A stretch of DNA of 64,000 nt, taken from Thermoplasmata archaeon. GTDB lineage: Archaea; Thermoplasmatota; Thermoplasmata; Thermoplasmatales; Thermoplasmataceae. The position numbers and the translations under genes were made by a program. How positions within the stretch are numbered: position 1 is the first letter of the stretch; every line of letters begins with the position of its first letter. The stretch lies in NCBI GenBank assembly GCA_021820525.1, contig JAKADM010000001.1, forward strand, positions 62,001-126,000. The letters run 5' to 3'. Positions 10,481 to 37,991 of the stretch are shown one piece after another. The notes under the pieces are model-generated. The model ran no database searches and had not been told where the DNA came from. It saw only the letters and a list, made by a program, of their open reading frames with translations.

Positions 10481-11401
10481 TTAATCTTGCATGGTTATGC
10501 CAAGCCTGTTAATTATCTCTTTATATCTTGTCCTTATGGTTACTTCCGTTACACCAGACATCTTTGAAAGATCAGCCTGAGTAACCTTGCTTCCACTCTT
10601 TTTGCAGGCCACATAAATTATTGCTGCTGCAAGGCCAGCCGGTGTTTTTCCATCCTTGATCCCCGCAGCATCCGCAGAAAAATATATGCTCATGCCCTCG
10701 TCAGAAACTCTCTTTGGAAGGTTGAGCTTTCTGGTAAAGTATGTTATGAAATACTGTATATCCGGCATCTTCTGCTCCATGTCCAGTTTTCTCGCCAGTT
10801 CCCTGTAATACCTTCCTATCTTCTTTCTCTCAAGGCCAAGCTCATCAGCTATTTCAGACAGTGTTCGGGGGTAGCCATAATTTCTGAAAACTCCATATAT
10901 TAAGCTCGCCACAATATACTCTGTGTTCCTTCCTCTGGTAATCCTTTTTTCCATTGCCTCCTTGAATGTCTTTCCGACCATTTCCCTCATGTCATCTGGC
11001 ATGCCAAGCCGCGAAGAAAATCCGTTAATGTACTGTATGGCCTTTATATGTCTTCTTTCGTTTCCATTGTTAACCTTGCTGAGGCTCTGGGCCTTCAACA
11101 ACCTGTAAACACTTTCCTTGCTCCTTCCCTTTATGACTTTTCCTGTTCCATCATATTTCCCTGTTGATATTTCCGTCCTCAGATTCTTATCGTGGCTCAT
11201 AAATGTGTTTGTGTTGGGATTGCGAGATACTAACTCTCCGTTATCTGAATCCCCTGAAAATATGGTTGGATTTTTCTCTATCAGGTTTTCTTCAAGAATG
11301 GCACCACAATTTCCACAGAAAACTTCTCCTCTGGAATAATCGGTGAATATCTTGTCAGAATTGCATTCCCTGCATTTTGTGGAAATATCTGATTTTTTCA
11401 T
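10481..11401 (-). CDS. tfb: Transcription initiation factor IIB (TFB), paralogue 1
   Basis: The 306-residue protein has an N-terminal zinc ribbon (CRECNSDKIF..VFCGNCG), a B-finger/linker region, and two cyclin-like repeats (from about residues 110 and 205), ending in a helix-turn-helix VTEVTIRTRYKEIINRLG that binds BRE. It is the more divergent of two TFB genes here: the linker is shorter and the second repeat has substitutions (RVSDEGMSIYFSADAAG). ATG 11401 is used; TTG 11404 is the alternative. A TATA-like CTTATATTTAG lies about 18 nt upstream. It heads the guaAA-PRC transcript. Confidence 0.92.
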   Translation of the reverse strand: MKKSDISTKCRECNSDKIFTDYSRGEVFCGNCGAILEENLIEKNPTIFSGDSDNGELVSRNPNTNTFMSHDKNLRTEISTGKYDGTGKVIKGRSKESVYRLLKAQSLSKVNNGNERRHIKAIQYINGFSSRLGMPDDMREMVGKTFKEAMEKRITRGRNTEYIVASLIYGVFRNYGYPRTLSEIADELGLERKKIGRYYRELARKLDMEQKMPDIQYFITYFTRKLNLPKRVSDEGMSIYFSADAAGIKDGKTPAGLAAAIIYVACKKSGSKVTQADLSKMSGVTEVTIRTRYKEIINRLGITMQD

Positions 11402-11592
11402 CAACCATCAAAACTAAATATAAGTTTTTCACTATATATATTTATTGAGAGAAACTGAATTATTTTTTGTTGAGATGAATTTAAAATAGGATTCATGCCT
11501 GACATGTTAAGGTGTTTGCTGATATGGCAAAACTCAACTTTAATAAATATTCACACTCACTATTTAAAAAAATTTAAGTATATTACGATATG

Positions 11593-11853: not shown

Positions 11854-12789
11854 ATGGATGATAAGAACAAGAAGAGTATTGAGCAGATTGAGAAGTGTCC
11901 AGAGTGTGGTTCAACTGATCTATCGAGAGATTATGAAAGGGGTGAACTTGTATGCAATAAATGCGGAATCGTTATTGATGACAGTTATATAGACCAGGGA
12001 CCGGAATGGAGGGCCTTTGATTCTGAACAGAATGAATCAAGGGCGAGGGCAGGGTCCCCAATGACATTTACCATACATGACAAGGGTCTTTCAACGGATA
12101 TTTCATGGAAGAACAAGGATTCATATGGAAAGTCAATTCCAACAAGGAACAGGGCTCAGCTTTACAGGTTGAGGAAATGGCAGAAGAGAATAAAGGTCTC
12201 CAACGCAGCTGAAAGAAACCTTTCACAGGCGCTTCAGGAGATGGAAAGGATGGCTTCCAATCTGAGTATACCTAATGATGTGAGAGAAACTGCTGCTGTA
12301 ATATACAGGAGGGCAGTGAAGCAGAATATGATCAGGGGAAGGAGCATTGAGGGTGTTGTTGCCGGGTCCCTATATGCAGCATGCAGGATAACCAATGTTC
12401 CAAGGACTCTTGATGAAATTGCATCCATAACAAGGGTAAAGAAAAAGGAGATCGGAAGAACATTCAGAATTATGAGCAGATACCTGCAGTTAAATATATT
12501 GCCATCAAAACCTGAAGATTATCTAAACAGATTTTGCAGCAAACTAAAACTTTCCATGGAGACTAGGAAACAGGCTGCAGACATTATAAAGATGGCCCAG
12601 GACGGAGATCTCACTTCGGGAAAGGGTCCAACAGGAGTTGCTGCCGCAGCAATTTATATTGCATCAATCCTCACAGGAGAAAGGAGAACTCAAAGGTCTG
12701 TTGCAGAAGTGGCAGGTGTAACTGAGGTAACAATAAGGAACAGGTATAAAGAATTAACTGAGAAACTCAATCTGGATGTTCAGGAATAA
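11854..12789 (+). CDS. tfb: Transcription initiation factor IIB (TFB), paralogue 2
   Basis: A 311-residue canonical TFB. The zinc ribbon [16 protein letters not shown] is followed by the conserved linker [11 protein letters not shown] and [10 protein letters not shown], typical of the main housekeeping TFB, then two cyclin folds, with [17 protein letters not shown] as the BRE-binding helix. GAGGTG lies 8 nt before ATG 11854. It follows gar1 by 14 nt. Compared with paralogue 1 at 10481 it is closer to the general TFB consensus, so it is probably the housekeeping factor. Confidence 0.95.
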
Positions 12790-13089: not shown

Positions 13090-13174
13090 GCGGAGGTTGC
13101 CGAGTCAGGTCAAAGGCGACAGACTCAAGATCTGTTTCCGCAGGGGTTCGCCGGTTCGAATCCGGCCCTCCGCA
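13090..13174 (+). tRNA. tRNA-Leu (anticodon CAA)
   Basis: Acceptor GCGGAGG pairs with CCTCCGC (13167-13173). The anticodon arm ACAGA-CTCAAGA-TCTGT gives CAA. A long class II variable arm (TTCCGCAGGGG region) and T arm GCCGG-TTCGAAT-CCGGC are present. CCA is not encoded. The accessory island begins just downstream. Confidence 0.95.
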
Positions 13175-13413: not shown

Positions 13414-14713
13414 TTGGGTCATCTGACATTTGTGTGGGTTCATGGGTAAAGCTGTAAGTTACTGCATCTGAAATATATTGCAGTCTTCAGATGCTCCATG
13501 TTCCTGTATCCGAATGCCATCTTCTCTATCAGTGCGATCTTTGAGTTCATGCCCTCTGCTCTTGCATTTGTTATACGGTGAACGAAATAGTTCAGTATGC
13601 TGGCAAGATGGACTTTCATCATCCTTGCAACATCCTTCATTGCATCCACTGATCAATGAATGACCATGAATACCAGCTGTCCCAGTATTTACTTCCCTCC
13701 TCCGGAGTTGGCATATTCCAGAGATTCCTCACATTCTCCTTCATCGAATATGCCTTTCCAGTCAAGAGATCAGCCTTCCTGAGTTCATTATATGTCTCCC
13801 TGTATCTCTCAGGGAGATTCTCTGAGGAGTAGAGCCAGATGTATCTCGTTCCATTGAGATCCATTATGCCCTTCTCCTTGAGTTTCCTGTTCTCCTCTTT
13901 CATTGTTTTATCCACTGCCTCGTTCACATGCCTCATCACATGGAATCGGTTGAATAGGACCTTTGTTGAGGCATCCGGTACGTGTTCCATCGTAGACGAC
14001 ATGATGGGATCCCACATGTCCATTGAAACTGCCTTTATGTTAGCAAGCTCTTCTCTGGAGAGCGTTTCATAATACTCATCCAGTGATTTCTTCTTCCTTT
14101 CGTATGAGATGTAATCAACACCGTTGTTTGTCATATCATAAACAGGGGTGATGTATCTGTGCCCTTTTTTGTATGATTTCTCATCTATACCCAACACTGA
14201 GGACTCCCTTCTTTCTGTCCGTACCCTTCTCCAATGCTCTCTCAATGATGTGACATGCCTTCTGGCTGAGACATGCATAATTTCTGTGAAGTTGTATGTA
14301 TCCATATTCTGAAGCATTCTTATTGACCCTGTCTCGAATCTTAATGTAAACACTGATGTCTTCTCGGTCCACGGCATAACTCCCTCAAGGATTCCATGCT
14401 CAGAGCAGGATATCCTCGGAGGAGATGCATGTATAAATGTCATGAATTCAATGCTGTCAAGACCCCTCCACACTCTCTCGCTTAGGTGATCCTCGACCAT
14501 GCATTCCTTCCTGCATTTGGGGCAAAGAAGCCTTTATCCCTTTTCATGAATTATGTATATCTCCACCTTCTTCTTCACCGCGTCAAGGGAAATACTCTCT
14601 ACCTTCCATGGCAGTTTCAGTTCAAGCAGTGCTGAATAGATCTCACGGTCGTCCATGAAATATTATACAAAAATATTAGATAAAATTACCCACATGAAAG
14701 TGGGAAGAACCAA
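13414..14713 (-). mobile_element. Decayed ISL3-family insertion sequence
   Basis: An imperfect terminal inverted repeat of about 26 bp bounds the element: TTGGGTCATCTGACATTTG at the left and the reverse-complement form TTGGTTCTTCCCACTTTCA at the right, both followed by TGTGGGT (18 of the inner 24 positions match). Inside is a single minus-strand transposase frame of the ISL3 (IS204/IS1001/IS1165) type, interrupted by a nonsense codon and a frameshift. No clear 8-bp target duplication was found at the ends. Confidence 0.7.
13440..14656 (-). pseudogene. ISL3-type transposase, inactivated
   Basis: Translation begins at ATG 14656 (MDDREIYSALLELKLPWKV). A TAA interrupts it at about residue 41 (HEKG-stop-RLLCPKCRKEC, within the zinc-ribbon region). 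It then runs open for 287 residues with the DDE-type segment VLGIDEKSYKKGHRYITPVYD, AVSMDMWDP and the His-rich FNRFHVMRHVNEAVD. A frameshift near 13645 moves the C-terminus (DAMKDVARMMKVHLASIL..NARAEGMNSKIALIEKMAFGYRN) to another frame; that end is the diagnostic ISL3 C-terminus. The element cannot transpose by itself. Confidence 0.8.
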
Positions 14714-16872: not shown

Positions 16873-18486
16873 TTAGTTCAGGTATTGGGAAATTTCTTTA
16901 ATTGACTTGAGATTGTTGTCTTCAAAATTAAACCCGCAGATTTCAACCACAGGGAAATTTTTGTCATCTTTGTATGCAATTAACAATTCCTTAAGTGAAT
17001 TAAAATATCTAATTATGTCTATATTGCGTAATAGGAAAATTAGTTTCCCACTGCAGTACCTATACTTTTTTATCTTACTTGTTAACAATGCAATTGGATC
17101 GCCTCTTCCAAAAAACGTTTCAGCTTCATAGTATTCTTCAAGTGTTCCACTATGAACATAAACATCAGAACTTTTATGATTGCTATCTTCTAGCGTTATT
17201 TCATCTATCTTTACTTTCTTTTTAAAAACAAAAATAAATCCCTTCATTCCAGAGTGGATGCTCGTGGCATTCTTTTCCGATTCAGAATTTGTATTGACTA
17301 ATATATCTGTGTTTTTTACTAAGTACTTATACAAATTTTCTGGCACGTTTTCTTTTAAAAAGTCTAGTTTTGAATACTCACTTATTTTGTCATCAAAACC
17401 CACTATCGATTCTTTAAAATTTTGTTGGAAATTGGATAGAGTTAAACTTCCCAAAGATTCTGTTTGAAATCCAGATATAACGTTTAATAATTTATCTCCG
17501 TAATTTTGTATACCTTCGAATACATCATCTTCAATTATTTTTATGCCTAGATTGTATTTTCTGAATGCTTCTACGTTTCCTGTGCCAAGAATTAAACATC
17601 CCCTCAGTTGATATACTGCATTATCTATTAGTTTTTGAAGATGGTTTTCTGTTTTATCACTTATTGTACTACTTTTTACTATGATTAACTTATGTTCACC
17701 AGTCTGCTCTAATTTCTGCTCTAATTCTTCTATGTTTACTACTCTTTCAATTTCTGGGAATCCTCCATAATTAACTCTGAAAAAGTCTCTGTAATTTATC
17801 GCAACAATTTCTGAATATTCAGTTTTAACTGCTATTATAAAAAACTTGTCGGAAACATTGACAGGTAAACCTAAGGGGCCTTCTTTATTCCCCCATGGGG
17901 TTTTAAGTTCATCATTAGAACTACTATTGCTGGGACTTAAATTACTCATGCTGTGCATTTCCCTTTTTACTTCAGTATCAACATTGTTATTGAAGGAGAA
18001 ACCTTCGCATAATGATATATTTTTCATATTAATAGTGATCAAATTTGGGATACCTAGTTTGAAGATTTCATTTTTAAAATTTACAATAAGATCATTAAGC
18101 GTAAATTCTCTTTGTTCTATTTCCGTAGAGGACATTATATCAATGGATGGAATCCTAGTTGTGTTCATATATTTATAGTATAATATTTTATCGTTGAGAC
18201 TATAATTTTTAAAATTAACATTTATGCTATTCTGAATAGGTAAATCTGGTATTACTTCTCTTTTCCGCGAGACGATTTTAACCTGGTCCTTGTCAAAATT
18301 TACAAGTCTAATCTGGATTGGATTAATATGTAAAGTTTGTAGAACTGGGACATTAACAATTTCTCTATCAGTATTTATTTCACCTCTATTTTCATTAAAA
18401 ATTTTGTTAGTGTCAAAATTTTGATTAACATTAGGATCACTATTTTTTATATCCTTCCTCTTTTCTATAGTTTCTTCTTCCTTCAT
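16873..18486 (-). CDS. Unknown protein B of an A+T-rich two-gene module (537 aa; possible C-terminal nuclease-like domain)
   Basis: A 537-residue protein with no family I can name. The N-terminal 60 residues are polar and low-complexity (KNSDPNVNQNFDTNK). A serine/asparagine-rich linker lies near residue 185 (NLSPSNSSSNDELK). A middle alpha/beta region contains HKLIIVKSS and LRGCLILGTGN. The C-terminal 120 residues alternate strands and helices: GFIFVFKKK, SSDVYVH (Asp about 441), EEYYEAETFFGRGDP (Glu about 454 and 456), SKIKKY, KLIFLLRN. This resembles the layout of PD-(D/E)xK nucleases with a displaced lysine, but that is inference only. ATGA overlap with the preceding gene indicates coupled translation. 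A+T content is visibly higher than in the core genes. Confidence 0.72.
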   Translation of the reverse strand: MKEEETIEKRKDIKNSDPNVNQNFDTNKIFNENRGEINTDREIVNVPVLQTLHINPIQIRLVNFDKDQVKIVSRKREVIPDLPIQNSINVNFKNYSLNDKILYYKYMNTTRIPSIDIMSSTEIEQREFTLNDLIVNFKNEIFKLGIPNLITINMKNISLCEGFSFNNNVDTEVKREMHSMSNLSPSNSSSNDELKTPWGNKEGPLGLPVNVSDKFFIIAVKTEYSEIVAINYRDFFRVNYGGFPEIERVVNIEELEQKLEQTGEHKLIIVKSSTISDKTENHLQKLIDNAVYQLRGCLILGTGNVEAFRKYNLGIKIIEDDVFEGIQNYGDKLLNVISGFQTESLGSLTLSNFQQNFKESIVGFDDKISEYSKLDFLKENVPENLYKYLVKNTDILVNTNSESEKNATSIHSGMKGFIFVFKKKVKIDEITLEDSNHKSSDVYVHSGTLEEYYEAETFFGRGDPIALLTSKIKKYRYCSGKLIFLLRNIDIIRYFNSLKELLIAYKDDKNFPVVEICGFNFEDNNLKSIKEISQYLN

Positions 18487-19457
18487 GGCGTTATCACTCC
18501 GTATAAATGATTTATAATTTCAATAGAGTTATTATTATAGCTTCCTATAGAAATACATCCCGCAAATCCCAATGGTAAAATAGATTTTAGCACTTCAGAA
18601 AGTGAAAAATAAGGAAAATTGAAGTCATATTTACTTATAAATCCCTTTTCATCAACGTTTAACATTGTCGTTTTATTTCTTATAATTTTCATGGCATTAT
18701 CGTCTAACATTTCCTTTAAAGAATTATAATTATTTTTTAAGTATTTCTGCCATTCGTCCTCGATTCCATTAAATAGAAATTCGGAATTATGCTTGGTAAA
18801 GACGGATAAATTAAATATTTCGTTTTGTAATTTAATTATATAGCTTAATAATCCATTATTTTTTGGTAGAATAAATTCTATATATTCAATATTAAAATTA
18901 AGAATTGGTTTAATTTCACCATCTAGGAGCATAAGTAGACTATTTAGATTTTCTTTTAAATCTGGATAGGCTTCGATCGCATATCTCTCAGAGATAAATG
19001 TTATTGACTTCAAAAACATAGAGAATCTATTATAAGTAGGAAGAACTCTCAATGAATAATTATAAAAATCCCTGATTAAAGATACAACATTGTTTGAATG
19101 TTCAACTAGATCCAAGTACATGTTTTCATCATAATTTTCCGGAATGTAGTTAATATTTAACTTCTTGGACCTAACTTTATCTATAATTATATTACAAAAG
19201 TCACTTATTTTCTTAATATGATAAAACATGCTTTCTTTATTTTGATAGTCGATATCATGACCTTCCCCGTCAAATGAGATCATTATATTCCTTTGAGCTT
19301 GTAAGTTGCCATTAGAATTCAGATATCTTTGAATGTTTTCATTTGTTAAGCCAACTCCAAAATGTTGTTTATAAAATGAAGACAAACTATTTTCTATGAT
19401 GCCAGATTTGGTAATGCCTCCTAAAATTAGTTTTTTAAGGTTTTCACGGGTGTCCAC
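18483..19457 (-). CDS. Unknown protein A of an A+T-rich two-gene module (324 aa, 5' end uncertain)
   Basis: A mostly helical protein of at least 324 residues, rich in Asn, Ile and Lys, with no recognised motif; it ends FAGCISIGSYNNNSIEIINHLYGVITP-like. GTG 19457 is the only standard start, but no SD precedes it. The frame is open and protein-like for 47 further codons (IEFVSENIIHLTGIGNKL..YGDYLRKEFYGKNI) up to TGA 19601-19599, without ATG, GTG or TTG. Thus the gene has probably lost its true 5' end, and an IS3-type element lies 50 bp beyond. It overlaps protein B by 4 nt (ATGA). Function unknown. Confidence 0.68.
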   Translation of the reverse strand: MDTRENLKKLILGGITKSGIIENSLSSFYKQHFGVGLTNENIQRYLNSNGNLQAQRNIMISFDGEGHDIDYQNKESMFYHIKKISDFCNIIIDKVRSKKLNINYIPENYDENMYLDLVEHSNNVVSLIRDFYNYSLRVLPTYNRFSMFLKSITFISERYAIEAYPDLKENLNSLLMLLDGEIKPILNFNIEYIEFILPKNNGLLSYIIKLQNEIFNLSVFTKHNSEFLFNGIEDEWQKYLKNNYNSLKEMLDDNAMKIIRNKTTMLNVDEKGFISKYDFNFPYFSLSEVLKSILPLGFAGCISIGSYNNNSIEIINHLYGVITP

Positions 19458-19762
19458 TATATTTTTTCCATAAAATTCTTTCCTTAAATAATCGCCATAG
19501 GCAGTAAGTTTATTACCTATTCCTGTTAAATGTATTATATTTTCACTTACAAATTCAATAAGCTCCTTTATCCCCTTTGTTTTTTCTCTGCCTCTAATTC
19601 AACCATTAGCTAGCATCAAAATAAGTTATAAAAATTGATCAGTAATGGAACTTTGATCTGCACCATCATAGAACTGGAACGCTATGATAATAATATTATA
19701 GAGGAGAACAGAAACATAAAGATCAGGCAAAAAGTGATTCTGCAGAGAATGGAAGTATCTTC

Positions 19763-20047
19763 ATGAAGTCCAAACATTCAGATGAGGAGAAGTTCCAGAT
19801 AATCATGGAATCCTTTGCAGACAATGTGACACAGGCTGAGATATGCCGGAGGCATGGCATATATCCCGTACAGCTGAGCAAGTGGAGGGATCAGTTCATC
19901 CAGGGAGGCAAATCAGCCCTGGCTCAGAGAAGGAATTCTGACAGGAGGGATGAGGAGATTGAGGATATGAAGAAGATCATTGGAGGCCAGTCACTGGTCA
20001 TAGACGCTTTTAAAAAACGCTTAAGAGAGCAAGATGATGGTTCTTGA
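19763..20047 (+). CDS. IS3-family OrfA (HTH_8-type transposase subunit)
   Basis: A 94-residue protein with an N-terminal helix-turn-helix (SDEEKFQIIMESFADNVTQAEICRRHGIYPVQLSKWRDQF) followed by a leucine-zipper-like helix (EEIEDMKKIIGGQSLVIDAFKKRLRE), the standard OrfA design. It looks intact. OrfB downstream is broken, so no functional OrfAB transposase can be made from this copy. Confidence 0.82.
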   Translation: MKSKHSDEEKFQIIMESFADNVTQAEICRRHGIYPVQLSKWRDQFIQGGKSALAQRRNSDRRDEEIEDMKKIIGGQSLVIDAFKKRLREQDDGS

Positions 20048-20878
20048 TGTTCTGAAACAGGAGATGTCCTTGAGGAATATCTCAAGGATATGAGGAATCT
20101 CACTGTCCGGATATTATTACAAACCCAGGAAGAGGAATATTCAGAAACTTGATCCTTCCACAGGGGAAAGGATCAGGGAGATTGCATCAGAAAGGCCAAC
20201 ATACGGTAACAGGAGAGTATGGGCTGTTCTGAGGAATCAAGGTACAGGGGTGAAACCAGAAGACCGTCAGGAAGGTCCTGAAGGATAACAATCTGAACCT
20301 TCCTGCATCAAAACACAGAGGGAGAACAAAGTCAAGGAATCTCTTTAAACCGACTGGACCAGATCAGCTATGGGAAACTGATATCACTTACACTCCAACA
20401 GGGTCTGGAATGACGTATCTGATGTCCATCAAGGACTGTTTCACGAAAGAATGGCAGGGATACCATAGGATCAGTGGAGAATGCTGTTCTCATGGCATTC
20501 AGCGGATCTGTTCCCAAAGGCCTGGTACTGAGGACAGACAATGGCCCTCAGTACATATCACAATAGTTCAGGAGTGCCATGAAACTCCTGGGAATAAGAC
20601 TGGAATACATACAGAAACACACTCCAGAAGACAATGGAAACATTGAGTCATTCCACAACTCAATCAAGACAGATTACATATGGCCAAACGAATTCAGGGA
20701 TTTCCATGAAGCCTCCATAGAGATTGAGAATGCATTCACCGACTACAATGAATGCAGGCCACATTCATCCATTGACTACCTTCCTCCAAGAGAGTTCAGG
20801 AGGAAGTTCCTGGATGATACGGCATTCAGGGAAAGATTCGGTAAGAATGAAGTTGAGGTGACACTAAATGAGAACTGA
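20034..20878 (+). pseudogene. IS3-family OrfB (DDE integrase), frameshifted
   Basis: Begins MMVLDVLKQEMSLRNISR, then shifts frame. Recognisable fragments are LSGYYYKPRKRN, ASERPTYGNRRVWAVLRNQG, a DIT-like metal-binding segment in another frame near 20380, and an intact C-terminal 99 residues (MKLLGIRLEYIQKHTPEDNGNIESFHNSIKTD..HSSIDYLPPREF) that hold the catalytic Glu of the rve domain. At least three frameshifts or stops separate these parts. Confidence 0.8.
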
Positions 20879-21035
20879 GGAAAAGTGTTCCAAATTCTGC
20901 TGGAGCAGATCAACTTTACTAAAACTTAAATAGCCAGGCAGAAAGTCTGCCTTTATGAAATTAGATTGCTATGATAAACGAGGTATTAGTTTATACTTAC
21001 AGTAACGTTTTTATTTGTTAGGATGTTTTACATCA

Positions 21036-21806
21036 ATGATATCTGTAAATGACTATAACACAGGTTTTAATATCGATAAACAAACATTGAAAAGATTAAA
21101 AAACATGTCTGGAATACTTATTGATCAGTTAAACAGTGTACCAATATACTTTGTAAAGAAAGAAACAATAGATGAATATGAAATCTCAATGTGCCTGAAA
21201 AGGGAGTGTGTTAAAGAATTTGTTGCAGGCTATTGGAGAGATGATGAATGGTGGTTTATGAGAGAGGATGAAGAAAAAACCAAAAATCTAATGTCAAGAT
21301 TGGGAAAATGCTTAAACAATTGTGACACCATTGCCTGTTATGTCTCCCAAGGTGATGCCATATGCAACGAACCACATATTCTGGTCGCTCAAGAAAAAAT
21401 CACATATAGAAATAAAAACCAGTTTGAAGATACACTAATAGCAGTACTACTTCATGAGCTTACTCATTCCTATTTCTCCTCTAAAATAAATAAAGGAGAT
21501 ATTAGCAGTCACATAATAGAGGAATCACTGTGTGAGGCATATGCCTTTTCAAGATTTGACAATGTTGAAAACATATTTGGATTTATGACCGACCAGAGAA
21601 GGCCTCCTGAATATACAGCCTTTAAATTTTGGAGTGAAATATCAAGGAAAACCCAGCTTATATTTCCCATGATTGAATGGAAAAAGAAGAATGAAATTGG
21701 TCTAATGTTATCAATATTCCCGGACAACTACCAATTTTATTTTAGACACTTTTTAAATGCCCATAATTTGAGTGCGCTAGCAAAGGTTATCCTTTTATTT
21801 TCATAA
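21036..21806 (+). CDS. Orphan HExxH (putative zinc metallopeptidase-like) protein
   Basis: A 256-residue soluble protein from ATG 21036 (a TTG at 21015 is possible). It contains HELTH at residues 140-144 inside a helix (TLIAVLLHELTHSYFSS), and about 20 residues later IIEESLCEAYAF with Glu at 162, 163 and 167 as candidate third zinc ligand, the gluzincin layout. Two tryptophan-rich patches (YWRDDEWWFM) and cysteine pairs precede it. No signal peptide is visible, so it probably acts in the cytoplasm. It lies between the IS3 remnant and the MutS-like pair. The exact family is not recognised; protease activity is an inference from the motif. Confidence 0.72.
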   Translation: MISVNDYNTGFNIDKQTLKRLKNMSGILIDQLNSVPIYFVKKETIDEYEISMCLKRECVKEFVAGYWRDDEWWFMREDEEKTKNLMSRLGKCLNNCDTIACYVSQGDAICNEPHILVAQEKITYRNKNQFEDTLIAVLLHELTHSYFSSKINKGDISSHIIEESLCEAYAFSRFDNVENIFGFMTDQRRPPEYTAFKFWSEISRKTQLIFPMIEWKKKNEIGLMLSIFPDNYQFYFRHFLNAHNLSALAKVILLFS

Positions 21807-22274: not shown

Positions 22275-23795
22275 TCAAGTGGTCTTCCCGCTCACATCGG
22301 ATAAATTAAAATCGCCAGTGTGTCTGGCAAGAGACATCTTCTTCCACACATCTAAGGCCCAGCTTGTGTTCAGGGCTTTCTGGGCTTCCTTAATCCTGAA
22401 TGTCCTCTGCCCATCCTGTAAGTGCTCAGCCAGAAGAAGCGTTCTTCTCTTCTGATCTGATTCTGATGCCCATGATGCCAGATGATAGAAATGAGTTGTC
22501 GCGAACGTCATTATGTCACCTTTCTCAAAGGACTGGATCACCTCCCGCATTATCATCGCTCCGTCGTATTGGTTGGTTGATGCCAGAGGCTCATTGAGAA
22601 TGATAATATCCTTTCTGTTGAGTGATGTTACAATATTCTGAATGTTAGAGAGTTCCCCTTCGTACCTGCCTCTCCCTATCTCCTGTTGCTCAGCCTTGGA
22701 GAAGTATGCATGAAGACAGTTAAACACCGTGCTCCTGAAGTATGTTGCAGGAACTGGAAGACCTGACTGGAAAAGAATAAGGGCCTGGCCTATGCTCCTG
22801 GCAAAAACGCTCTTTCCCCCGCTGTTCGGTCCACTGATCACGAAAGTGATCCTTCCAGCACTGTCCAGTGAATTTGAAATAGGTATTTTCCCACTTCTCA
22901 ACATCAATGAAGTTTCTACAAGGTCGTCGAATTTTAGAGAGGGGGACTCTTCTTTCCCTATTACTGGAAAGGTTAAGGGGGCTCCAAGTTCCCTGATTTT
23001 TTTAATAAGATTGACAGCACCCGCATAGAAAAGAAACTCATCTCTCATTCTGCAAACTTTCAAGTATATGGAGGATGCTAATTCGTGCACCATTCCAGCC
23101 ACCTCTCTGATTATAGTTTCCCTGAACGAACTGAACTCCTGTCCACATCCCTCACAACTACCTGGCAGGGTCCATTTACGGCTTTTTGTAAGTAACTTCA
23201 ACGGCCTTCCCTTTCCCTGATGATTCAGCAGTTTGACCTGGTTTATGGAAAGGTCCCATTCGGTGCCCATATATGCATAGAGCCTGTGGTCAAAGTCTGT
23301 CCTTTCAATTATCCCCTTTGTTTTCTTGACCCATTGGTCATTGTACTTCTCGTTAAAATCCTTAATATATTCTTGCATCTGTTTTGATATTTTTCTGCCC
23401 AATAAATAATCAAATAGGGGCCTGATCTTAGAAATATAGTCAATAAAGGATGAGATTATGAACCGGCCTTCATAAACCAGGATACCTGGCCTGTCTGAAT
23501 CTGTCCAGAACATTCTCTTTCTTATGCTTTTCTCAATCTCTGTTGTCAAGGATGCAAGGGAACGAAACTGATCCTCGTTTTCAGTCGCATCTTTCATCAC
23601 TGCCTGGCGAAGCTTTATTGTGTCCAGATCTGTCCTGCCATGCATCATCACCTTCCTGCATGTTTCCCGTATATCCCGATCGCCACCTGCCATGACATCC
23701 AATATGGGGTTGAAATCAAGATCTTCGAAAGTTTTCACAGCAACTTTATCCGGTTCTTCGAGGTTTCTTTCTGAATCGGCGTAAAGAATGTTCAT
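22275..23795 (-). CDS. MutS-like ATPase, second of a pair (506 aa)
   Basis: The C-terminal half is a MutS domain V: Walker A GPNSGGKS (322-329) following TFVI, the conserved AxxVFxxxxxx-like segment with a signature NIQNIVTSL, Walker B IIILNEP (397-402) and the MutS-typical His in FATTHFYHL. The mismatch-binding N-terminal domain I is absent; the N-terminal 250 residues are helical, like the core/clamp region. Such MutS-like proteins cannot do classical mismatch recognition and are linked to recombination or unknown DNA transactions. The start codon overlaps the stop of the neighbouring MutS-like gene (TAATG) behind a strong GAGGTGATG. The two products probably form a heterodimer. Confidence 0.85.
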   Translation of the reverse strand: MNILYADSERNLEEPDKVAVKTFEDLDFNPILDVMAGGDRDIRETCRKVMMHGRTDLDTIKLRQAVMKDATENEDQFRSLASLTTEIEKSIRKRMFWTDSDRPGILVYEGRFIISSFIDYISKIRPLFDYLLGRKISKQMQEYIKDFNEKYNDQWVKKTKGIIERTDFDHRLYAYMGTEWDLSINQVKLLNHQGKGRPLKLLTKSRKWTLPGSCEGCGQEFSSFRETIIREVAGMVHELASSIYLKVCRMRDEFLFYAGAVNLIKKIRELGAPLTFPVIGKEESPSLKFDDLVETSLMLRSGKIPISNSLDSAGRITFVISGPNSGGKSVFARSIGQALILFQSGLPVPATYFRSTVFNCLHAYFSKAEQQEIGRGRYEGELSNIQNIVTSLNRKDIIILNEPLASTNQYDGAMIMREVIQSFEKGDIMTFATTHFYHLASWASESDQKRRTLLLAEHLQDGQRTFRIKEAQKALNTSWALDVWKKMSLARHTGDFNLSDVSGKTT

Positions 23796-25309
23796 TAATC
23801 ATCACCTCTTCCATTATCCTCATAGATGATCCTGTAGTGCCTGGCCAGTTCAAGGGCATAATTTTTGACGGATAGCGGGCCAGCTGTGAAGACATGTGTC
23901 CTGGCAGTAGGATCATCCGCCGGGATGAGTGCCGAATATACTTTGATATCTGGAAGCTCCTCCAGACTGTTCAGGAATGTTACTGAGATACAGTAAGAAC
24001 CTTTACTTTTTATTATGGGGATTATCTCTTTGTATAGATTGAGAGCATCGTTTTCATTGGTTGAACCCATGAACTCATTCAGGACTATCAGTGTCTTTTC
24101 ATCAGCTTCCGTCAATATTTCGTTCATTCGACTGAGTTCCTCTTCAAGCCGGCCAATCATCTCCTCAACATCCTCAGCCACTGGAAAAATAGTTCTTATT
24201 TTTGTGAATAGTGGGAGTGAAGCCTGCTTTGCCGGAACAGGGACGCCCAGGGACGCCAGATATGCTATCTGTCCTATGGCTGTAGCAAGTGTCGTCTTGC
24301 CACTACTGTTTGGTCCAATTATGAAGGCAATATGCTCATGGGCTTCGAGATGAAGATCATTGGGAGTGATTGGTGCTGGGGATTTCCTTTCGAGCCATAG
24401 ACTATAGAACCCTTCCATAGAAAAAGAAGTTACTTCTGGATTTACCACTGGAAAGCAGAAATGTAGACCTCTGCTGCGAACAGAGTCCATCAAGATCAGA
24501 TAGGAAAGATAAAACTGGAATTCTACGGCAAATCGCGTTATTTCAATTGTCGGAAAACTTGTTGAATCATTGATGAAGTCTCTCAAGTCCCTGAACTCAT
24601 CTGGATAGAGACCTGAAACCAGTTCAAGAATAACGTTTCTCATATAATCCCCCAATTCATTATTCCTGAATTTTGGTTTACCATGTATTTCCCTGGGCGA
24701 ATCTTTATCGAATGCTTCCGCAATGAATTCCTTCAGCCCACCGGATTCTTCGCACTTGAATATCCGGATCGTACTTTCCTGTATAAGCATGCAGAACCTG
24801 ATGCGTGAAAGTATGGATTTAATGTGTGCTGTCCTGTCAACCAGCGCTCTAAATTCTTCTTCCTTTTTAAGCCATTGTAGATATTCGTAGAATCCTTCCA
24901 GAGCTTCTGATGAGTACTTTTCTTTTTTAAGGACATCAACGCACATTGAAATATCGTCAATGACATTTGAGAGAGATTTCAATATTTCGGCAGTCCTGAT
25001 GTATGGATAACTGTAACCCTTATCATTGCGAGTTTTTAAAAGACTTAGAACATCATATGAAAGTCTTGTCAGTGCATTTCTGATCTCAGAGTTAGAAAGA
25101 CTTCTGAATACATCGTGTCTATATTTTATATTATCAATGTCTCGAAGTGGGGAATAAAAAATTTTTCTAACGGATTCATCTGCCATATCCCCAAGAATGA
25201 GTGTAATAATATTATTAATCTGAAGATCATCCAGAAATCTTTCGCCTTCTTTATTTACTGCGAACTCAGAACTTTCATTCCTTAAGACTAAGCTGTAAAA
25301 CCCCCCCAT
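23795..25309 (-). CDS. MutS-like ATPase, first of a pair (504 aa)
   Basis: Same architecture and length as its downstream partner: helical N-terminal region, then a MutS-type ATPase with Walker A GPNSSGKT (332-339), TAIGQIAYLASLGVPVPA, the helix VEEMIGRLEEELSRMNEIL and Walker B LIVLNEF (408-412) plus GSTNENDA. Sequence identity to the partner outside these motifs is low, so it is an ancient paralogue. There is no mismatch-recognition domain. GAGAGGT lies 6 nt before ATG 25309. The coding sequence begins ATG with seven G in a row, a possible slippage site. It is first in a two-gene operon. Confidence 0.85.
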   Translation of the reverse strand: MGGFYSLVLRNESSEFAVNKEGERFLDDLQINNIITLILGDMADESVRKIFYSPLRDIDNIKYRHDVFRSLSNSEIRNALTRLSYDVLSLLKTRNDKGYSYPYIRTAEILKSLSNVIDDISMCVDVLKKEKYSSEALEGFYEYLQWLKKEEEFRALVDRTAHIKSILSRIRFCMLIQESTIRIFKCEESGGLKEFIAEAFDKDSPREIHGKPKFRNNELGDYMRNVILELVSGLYPDEFRDLRDFINDSTSFPTIEITRFAVEFQFYLSYLILMDSVRSRGLHFCFPVVNPEVTSFSMEGFYSLWLERKSPAPITPNDLHLEAHEHIAFIIGPNSSGKTTLATAIGQIAYLASLGVPVPAKQASLPLFTKIRTIFPVAEDVEEMIGRLEEELSRMNEILTEADEKTLIVLNEFMGSTNENDALNLYKEIIPIIKSKGSYCISVTFLNSLEELPDIKVYSALIPADDPTARTHVFTAGPLSVKNYALELARHYRIIYEDNGRGDD

Positions 25310-36009: not shown

Positions 36010-37257
36010 TCAAGCGGTTTCTTTCTGCATTAAAATTATGAATTCCCTCGTCATTGTGTCTTCAAGTTTTCCAGCCTGGTTAGAGGGGCTGTTCTTGGAA
36101 GGCATTCTCTTATTGGGGATGTTTCTCGTAAAGGTTTCTAAATGTTTAAAGCCATTATGCTCAAAGAAGCAAACTATGGATTTTTCTGTTGGAAGAAGAA
36201 TGCCTGCAACCTTCCTATTTGCAACAACGTAGCATGCATATCCCTCATTCTTTATGACCTTTGAAACGTTGTTAATTGATCTCTTAAGATCAGCATAGAA
36301 TGAATAAACTTCTAGTGACCTTTTATGGTTTATCTCATCTACCTGTTTTATGCCATTGTCCAGTTCATCACATTCAAAGTTCATCGGTTCTATTTTCTTT
36401 CCGCCCATAGAAGCTTTATCAACATTGTAGCTTAATATTCCTAGCCATTCTGATGAGAGTTTTGAATACTGGCCATATGCCACTGTGGTATGTGAATCTC
36501 CATAAGGGGGAGATGTTATAACTAGGTCAACTGTATTTTCTCCTATCATGTCTTTAGGTATTTCATTTACAGTATTTGCAAAATAAACCTTAGATGTTGG
36601 CTTGTATGTCAGCTCCAACATCCTATTGTAAAATGTTTCATAACCTTTTAAATTCCTAGACAGTTTTTCCTTCATTATGCTGAATGGATCGGGATTGTGC
36701 TTTTTTAGATCTTCTTCACTATATCGGTATAATTTAAATTCGCCCTTCCTAGTGTTTGAGCTTTCCCTAATTGTTTCACTTGCGGCTACTTCGAAGAAGT
36801 TCTTGATCCTTGGGTCCTTAATTTTGCTTATGTATCTTATCATTAAGCCGATACTTTTTATTACATTAGGCTTAAACCAAAATTCCAAGTTCTCCTTGTC
36901 TATTATTTTCGGTGTTCCTTTTGGGTTCATTGTGAATTCAACAAATCTATGGATTTCATTGCTCAATTCGTTTGGATTTAGGGTGTATTCTGTCTTTGCT
37001 TCAGAAATCAATTTTGCTAAAGGATTTATATCAGTGCCAATAACATTTAGACCTGCTATTAGTCCTTCTACCAATGAAGTGCCTGAGCCACAATAGGGAT
37101 CAAATAATACTCCCCCCTCCTTCTCTCCCAGTAACTTGATTATATTTCTTGGTATTTGAGGTATCATTCTTGCTGGATAATCATGATAGATGTGGGTGAA
37201 TTCCCTTGTATTTTCTTTCAGAAATGTCCAGTCCATTTCTTTAGAGTTCTTTATCAT
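36010..37257 (-). CDS. Type II DNA methyltransferase (N4-cytosine or N6-adenine)
   Basis: A 415-residue amino-methyltransferase with the SAM-binding motif I FDPYCGSGTSLVEG (residues 52-65) ahead of the catalytic motif IV TSPPYGDSHT (248-256). A target-recognition region of about 180 residues lies between them. SPPY favours N4-cytosine methylation. The gene overlaps the endonuclease gene by 4 nt (ATGA) and protects host DNA against it. The pair is bounded by A+T-rich gene-free DNA on both sides, a sign of recent acquisition. No control protein is visible. Confidence 0.85.
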   Translation of the reverse strand: MIKNSKEMDWTFLKENTREFTHIYHDYPARMIPQIPRNIIKLLGEKEGGVLFDPYCGSGTSLVEGLIAGLNVIGTDINPLAKLISEAKTEYTLNPNELSNEIHRFVEFTMNPKGTPKIIDKENLEFWFKPNVIKSIGLMIRYISKIKDPRIKNFFEVAASETIRESSNTRKGEFKLYRYSEEDLKKHNPDPFSIMKEKLSRNLKGYETFYNRMLELTYKPTSKVYFANTVNEIPKDMIGENTVDLVITSPPYGDSHTTVAYGQYSKLSSEWLGILSYNVDKASMGGKKIEPMNFECDELDNGIKQVDEINHKRSLEVYSFYADLKRSINNVSKVIKNEGYACYVVANRKVAGILLPTEKSIVCFFEHNGFKHLETFTRNIPNKRMPSKNSPSNQAGKLEDTMTREFIILMQKETA

Positions 37258-37991
37258 AATTTATCCATCTTAGGTAATATCATATCTCTGTAGGCAAAGC
37301 AATCTTGAATATTTGCTTCAAGCACCCTGAATGCTGTCCCATGGTCATGTAACTTCCCTTCATTCTTCCCTCCCTTTGGATGCAATCCTAGTCTTAATTC
37401 AACTTTTACAATTCCCTTGTTAATAAGCGAAATAAACCTTTCGAATGAGAAACCCATTAAAACCCAAGCTTCTTTATAATTGAATTCTTCATTATCCTTG
37501 CTCCCTTTCCTATCAGCTTTCACAAGGAGCACCCTATACATTTTTCTCTCAAAAGATTCCTTTAATGATTTGTTATTCCATCCTCCATAGATATTTCCAT
37601 TCACGCTTTCAATATTAATTCTATCCGGTAATACTTTCAGTTTTAATGACGGGACTCCTTTAATTACAGTTATTTTGTTGCCATATAAATCAACATGAAG
37701 GACTTTCCTATTTGGATCATTTCTACTTGGATAACCATAGTCTTCCAATAACATCCTTATTGAATCACTTGGTTTGGGGCTCTTTGTAAAAAGTGTAATC
37801 ATAGACGATGATCTCATTCTTATGGATTTCAGTTCTACATTCTCACCATCCGGTCCTGGTATGTTGTTTTCTTCAATACCTAGTAAGTCTTCTAGTGTTT
37901 TGCCTATTCCAGTGTCGTGAGATCTGTTTGACTTAACCCACTGGTTGCTGATTTCATTCAGGCGATCAACTAGTTCATTAAAGCCCTTCAT
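37254..37991 (-). CDS. MvaI/BcnI-like type II restriction endonuclease
   Basis: The 245-residue product has the hallmarks of the MvaI/BcnI family: HDTGIGKTLEDLLGIEENN (His 25, TGIG 27-30) followed by a PD-(D/E)xK site GPDGENVELKS (Asp 48, Glu 53, Lys 55). Family members are monomeric enzymes that nick each strand in CCWGG or CCSGG-type sites; the specificity here is not known. It precedes and overlaps the methyltransferase gene. All three catalytic residues are present, so the enzyme could be active. Confidence 0.82.
   Translation of the reverse strand: MKGFNELVDRLNEISNQWVKSNRSHDTGIGKTLEDLLGIEENNIPGPDGENVELKSIRMRSSSMITLFTKSPKPSDSIRMLLEDYGYPSRNDPNRKVLHVDLYGNKITVIKGVPSLKLKVLPDRINIESVNGNIYGGWNNKSLKESFERKMYRVLLVKADRKGSKDNEEFNYKEAWVLMGFSFERFISLINKGIVKVELRLGLHPKGGKNEGKLHDHGTAFRVLEANIQDCFAYRDMILPKMDKL

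Follow-up and report, generated by a model that had tools for sequence, protein, structure and literature searches.

Archaeal 'dark matter islands' are described in the main texts of published surveys as rich in integrated or mobile elements and in novel or unrecognised defence systems (PMC4158269, PMC6393860). A find of the kind reported here is to be expected from these surveys, and their main texts do not name it (PMC4158269, PMC6393860). The motif of PD-(D/E)XK nucleases varies, and without a structure it is difficult to recognise (PMC4081073). We describe a pair of overlapping genes, A and B, from a 64-kb window (the whole stretch of DNA that was analysed) of a Thermoplasmata archaeon. 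Both families appear undescribed in the libraries searched, and to our knowledge defence in Thermoplasmata has been little explored.

The stop codon of A and the start codon of B share an ATGA (Table 1) and a GGAG sequence stands just 5' of the ATG of B, an arrangement which suggests that the two genes may be translationally coupled. The initial annotation had proposed two genes overlapping by ATGA, of at least 324 and 537 residues, with a base composition of their own and insertion sequence (IS) remnants on both sides, and this outline was borne out. The coordinates agree exactly with the overlap, B has 537 aa, A proves longer than its listed reading frame at ~370, and the flanks hold a broken ISL3 transposase and a degraded IS3-like element. 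The G+C content of A-B is 28.9%, against 39.2% across the window, and of all 1-kb windows in the 64 kb the nine with the lowest G+C fall at the pair, making it the most A+T-rich stretch. In simulated sequence of the same composition the longest open frame averaged 83 codons and never exceeded 136 (200 runs), so frames of the length of A and B are not expected by chance. A sigma-70 promoter scan was uninformative for an archaeon.

Table 1. Coordinates of the A-B pair, of regions within B and of surrounding features (window positions unless a locus is named).
Feature	Position	Strand	Remarks
Two TFB genes	10481-11404, 11854-12789		window archaeal
tRNA-Leu	13090-13174		island starts after it
Broken ISL3-family transposase	13440..14500	-	flank
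HTH fragment	16260-16523
Gene B	16873..18486	-	537 codons/aa, ATG start; unclassified; candidate effector
B residues 395-537	16876..17304	-	C-terminal domain, conserved; by its motif possibly a PD-(D/E)XK-type nuclease
B residues 450-463, EEYYEAETFFGRGD	17098..17139	-	longest stretch of identity shared by the two complete relatives
B D441	17164-17166	-
B residues 205-350	17437..17874	-	conserved; alternating strand/helix pattern (low confidence)
B residues 46-178	17953..18351	-	about four 33-34-residue repeats beginning [V/I]P
ATGA overlap, A stop/B start	18483..18486	-	read from sequence; identical overlap in G029
Gene A	18483..19598	-	~370 codons; unclassified; probably helical
Listed ORF of A	18483-19457	-	324 aa from GTG
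Degraded IS3-like element	~19704..20913	+	flank, outside module; between A and divergent HExxH gene
Divergent HExxH gene	21015-21806
Two adjacent MutS domain V ATPase genes	22275-25309		island ends before them
HExxH family loci	window 21015-21806; L008:17082-18092; L035:1472-2404; L036:6579-7554; L037:6022-7203; L038:6647-7909

Neither protein gave a significant match in Pfam, PHROGs, NCBIfam, PADLOC or PDB sequences, so that the absence of a recognisable family, already asserted from the sequence, holds against these libraries. Matches to DUF6565, Med2, DUF1829, Sp-CxC and Csx19 were at noise level, and against the PADLOC defence models (PADLOC-DB version 2023) weak noise matches were all that was found. 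Current defence libraries thus do not see A-B.

The frame of A is open to 19598, and in a tblastn comparison the protein of a relative aligns to it from 19568, upstream of the GTG at 19457. This GTG is therefore too late and A would have about 370 aa. No in-frame ATG, GTG or TTG lies upstream of the listed GTG, which points to an unusual start codon or to a disrupted 5' end. At the level of the order, a 235-residue relative of A, 27-30% identical and truncated by a contig end, is encoded by DHVE2 group archaeon isolate S014_50 (WALH01000095.1). AlphaFold2, applied to A and this DHVE2 relative, returned a model of low confidence (pLDDT ~35) that is almost all helix, and A may accordingly be described, at low confidence, as helical. 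A class-wide search with A yielded one further weak match, in G074, which was rejected. It belongs to a family of 406-411 aa found in two genomes, G074 and G098, of another family of the order (L018:10193-11428, L033:713-1933), whose short, weak similarity to A and hhalign probability of 60% did not justify accepting its members as homologues.

B can be divided into three regions. The period of 33 in its N-terminal repeats is clear in the complete relative from G029, a genome of another genus of the family, where 0 of 500 shuffles reach it; for the window copy the best self-alignment beats all 200 shuffles, and the ungapped period is not prominent. The middle region may be alpha/beta-like, at low confidence. 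The C-terminal domain (conservation 62%) contains the 14-residue run EEYYEAETFFGRGD (p = 0.034 for its length when the identity columns are shuffled). The two complete relatives have D441 and E454-A-E456 unchanged, and the G414 remnant described below keeps E456 and not E454. Along the chain, D441 is followed by the E-x-E block and then by a segment rich in K and a hydrophobic strand, the conservation being densest at the acidic block, and the third motif position carries no lysine, the classical K of PD-(D/E)XK enzymes being missing. We hypothesize from these motifs that the C-terminus could be a PD-(D/E)XK-type nuclease in which E-x-E replaces E-x-K, an arrangement like that of BamHI. Searches of the C-terminus against Pfam and by hmmsearch against the PDB (both with E up to 10) gave noise only, and an AlphaFold2 model of residues 205-537 alone, of low confidence (pLDDT 35), places helix over the motif.

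A-B is rare and narrowly distributed. G029 is the sole holder of both genes among 101 relatives, with the same order and overlap (A at L008:11196-12308, B from 12305 in L008), and A and B are each ~55% identical between the window and G029. At codon positions 1/2/3 the two copies differ by 0.32/0.22/0.52 for A and 0.33/0.23/0.51 for B, and 45-47% of identical residues are written with different codons in A and B. Differences so weighted to third positions, together with differing codons for identical residues, indicate that both frames have been under selection as proteins. Of 117 genomes in the order, 3 contain B, the third (G414, from a third genus) holding a remnant that matches residues 454-537 and contains an internal stop. 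Homology to a housekeeping or replication family, which had been set beforehand as the refutation of an undescribed system, was looked for and not found for either protein in Pfam or NCBIfam, and B, with its 3 holders among 117, is absent from most relatives. No additional relative survived inspection when B was sought in 400 genomes of the class, or its C-terminus in 390 genomes of the phylum. A match in G035 was due to chance, its locus being a housekeeping region, and those in G615 and G648 were likewise rejected as chance on inspection of the loci. Contig scans outside the phylum used exact peptide patterns and test absence there weakly. Decay is widespread among the copies: B of G029 is split into overlapping frames of 174 and 371 codons, with the break in a poorly conserved linker, that of G414 is a fragment, and the start of A in the window is doubtful. 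The window copy of A-B may thus no longer be functional.

In the window, the pair lies in an island whose patchy presence, low G+C content and IS scars fit a mobile island. The HTH fragment looks transposon-like, and the IS3-like element has more copies elsewhere in the same genome. It is flanked by ~100 bases on each side, so that before its insertion A and the HExxH gene probably stood back to back across ~200 bases. Of 11 genomes from the same genus, only 2 have a match to the first of the MutS-domain genes beside the island. No established defence gene adjoins A-B in the window; within the part examined, the nearest recognised ones are an MvaI/BcnI-family endonuclease gene and an overlapping DNA methylase gene (36010-37991), which sit in another A+T-rich stretch.

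The complete A-B locus of G029 is a defence island. A short HSDR_N frame, a type I R fragment, precedes the pair, and the ~4.2 kb after it hold a gene of 441 aa that matches sce7726 weakly, an AbrB/PIN pair (VapBC) and an HExxH gene; further on come a 248-aa gene, AbiEi and AbiEii, and beyond them one CARF gene and two Csx1 genes. The B remnant of G414 abuts a homologue (52% identical) of the G029 248-aa gene, and its contig carries an AbiE pair and, on our reading of the sequences, what is probably an antitoxin/PIN-like (VapBC-like) pair. In G049, a gene 86% identical to the 441-aa gene, and an HExxH gene that is broken, stand amid HSDR_N_2, HNH_2, NERD and NurA genes. These three neighbourhoods place A-B, through guilt by association at two A-B or B loci, in a shared pool of genes of defence-rich islands.

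Several of these neighbours deserve record in their own right. The 248-aa protein (L048:338-1084, L055:3-587) is without a Pfam match, adjoins B in G029 and in G414, the two loci other than that of the window, and possibly marks the same type of island. The protein of 415-441 aa (L008:14336-15661 and L036:3717-4964, 86% identical, from two genera) has its weak sce7726 (nuclease-like) match near the C-terminus and is common to two otherwise different defence-type islands; the G029 gene was not found in the window's genome in a search that had no positive control. The NurA-domain gene of the G049 island (L036:331-1341), with its neighbours HSDR_N_2, HNH_2 and NERD-HEAT, is itself part of a defence-like cluster. 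The HExxH genes form a variable family of putative metallopeptidases (HELTH ... IIEESLCEA) with no significant Pfam match, present in 7 of the 101 relatives, both in defence-rich islands and adjoining core genes. Several genomes have the family but lack A-B, and the HExxH gene was therefore rejected as a third component of the module.

We propose, with a probability of about 0.45, that A and B form an accessory module of Thermoplasmata, translationally coupled and horizontally mobile, that is engaged in conflicts, be it with viruses or with other mobile elements, B most likely being the effector and A its helical partner. The N-terminal repeat region of B would serve in binding, the alpha/beta middle would lie between the repeats and the C-terminal domain, the C-terminal domain would cut nucleic acid, and A would sense, recruit or restrain B. 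We infer a defence role, a nuclease activity for B and a role for A, the link to defence being one of guilt by association; among the available readings defence has the most support, and our confidence in it is modest. Against it count that only two loci supply a defence context, that the pair has no defence gene beside it in the window, that A offers no hint of its function, and that island hotspots collect unrelated genes. More specifically, A-B could be a two-protein anti-virus system of Thermoplasmata that has not been described before, in which a helical sensor of a new family acts with an effector that combines 33-residue repeats with a regulatory region of alpha/beta type and a nuclease that has diverged strongly; this proposal we regard as rather doubtful.

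The island setting can also be read differently. Beginning beside tRNA-Leu, A+T-rich, IS-scarred and, over ~9 kb, without any recognisable cellular gene other than the HExxH gene, it would suit a relic downstream of the tRNA in which A-B was cargo, or a maintenance or replication module, of an integrated plasmid or provirus. This origin is unlikely, since A and B matched nothing in the plasmid, phage and IMG/VR collections (IMG/VR by exact peptide patterns of limited sensitivity), no integrase or replication gene was seen beside either A-B locus, and a tRNA attachment-site repeat was sought and not found. Of the earlier suggestion of defence or plasmid maintenance, the first half has thus gained indirect support, from the G029 island and from the G414 remnant near VapBC-like and AbiE genes, and the second is left unsupported by the absence of matches in plasmid or virus collections. 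A large toxin-antitoxin pair, with B as toxin and A as antitoxin, kept by addiction, would account for two overlapping genes found near VapBC and AbiE in relatives; we consider it quite improbable, as both proteins are far larger than is typical of type II pairs, no domain, whether DNA-binding or antitoxin, can be recognised in A, and neither protein matches the PADLOC models of AbiE or other toxin-antitoxin systems. That no family gives A-B a function, and that the HExxH family also stands beside core genes elsewhere, so that island neighbours need not be defence genes, would be in keeping with an accessory pair with a metabolic, structural or regulatory task outside conflict, which came to lie in variable islands by chance. 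The recurrence of defence-gene neighbours, the very patchy presence (three genomes of the 117 in the order) and the decay of several copies make such a pair improbable. If A-B is a defence module, two protein families missed by homology searches would be gained, and gene pairs that are rare and in decay would deserve testing where they lie next to CARF and AbiE loci.

Compared with known systems, B resembles the PD-(D/E)XK nucleases in that D441, the E-x-E block, the K-rich segment and the hydrophobic strand of its C-terminus come in a plausible order, and differs from them in having neither a profile or PDB sequence match nor the classical lysine. The AbiE and VapBC toxin-antitoxin systems are, like A-B, two-gene modules and occur in the same islands as its relatives, but there is no sequence match and A and B far exceed their proteins in size. 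CARF/Csx1 accessory effectors are neighbours in G029, and in B, too, an alpha/beta region seems to be combined with what may be a nuclease; B has no CARF match in PADLOC or Pfam, however, and the resemblance in layout is one of analogy only. The broadest likeness is to the 'dark matter islands' as the main texts of the surveys present them, in which narrowly spread clusters of uncharacterised genes lie near mobile elements and defence genes (PMC4158269, PMC6393860).
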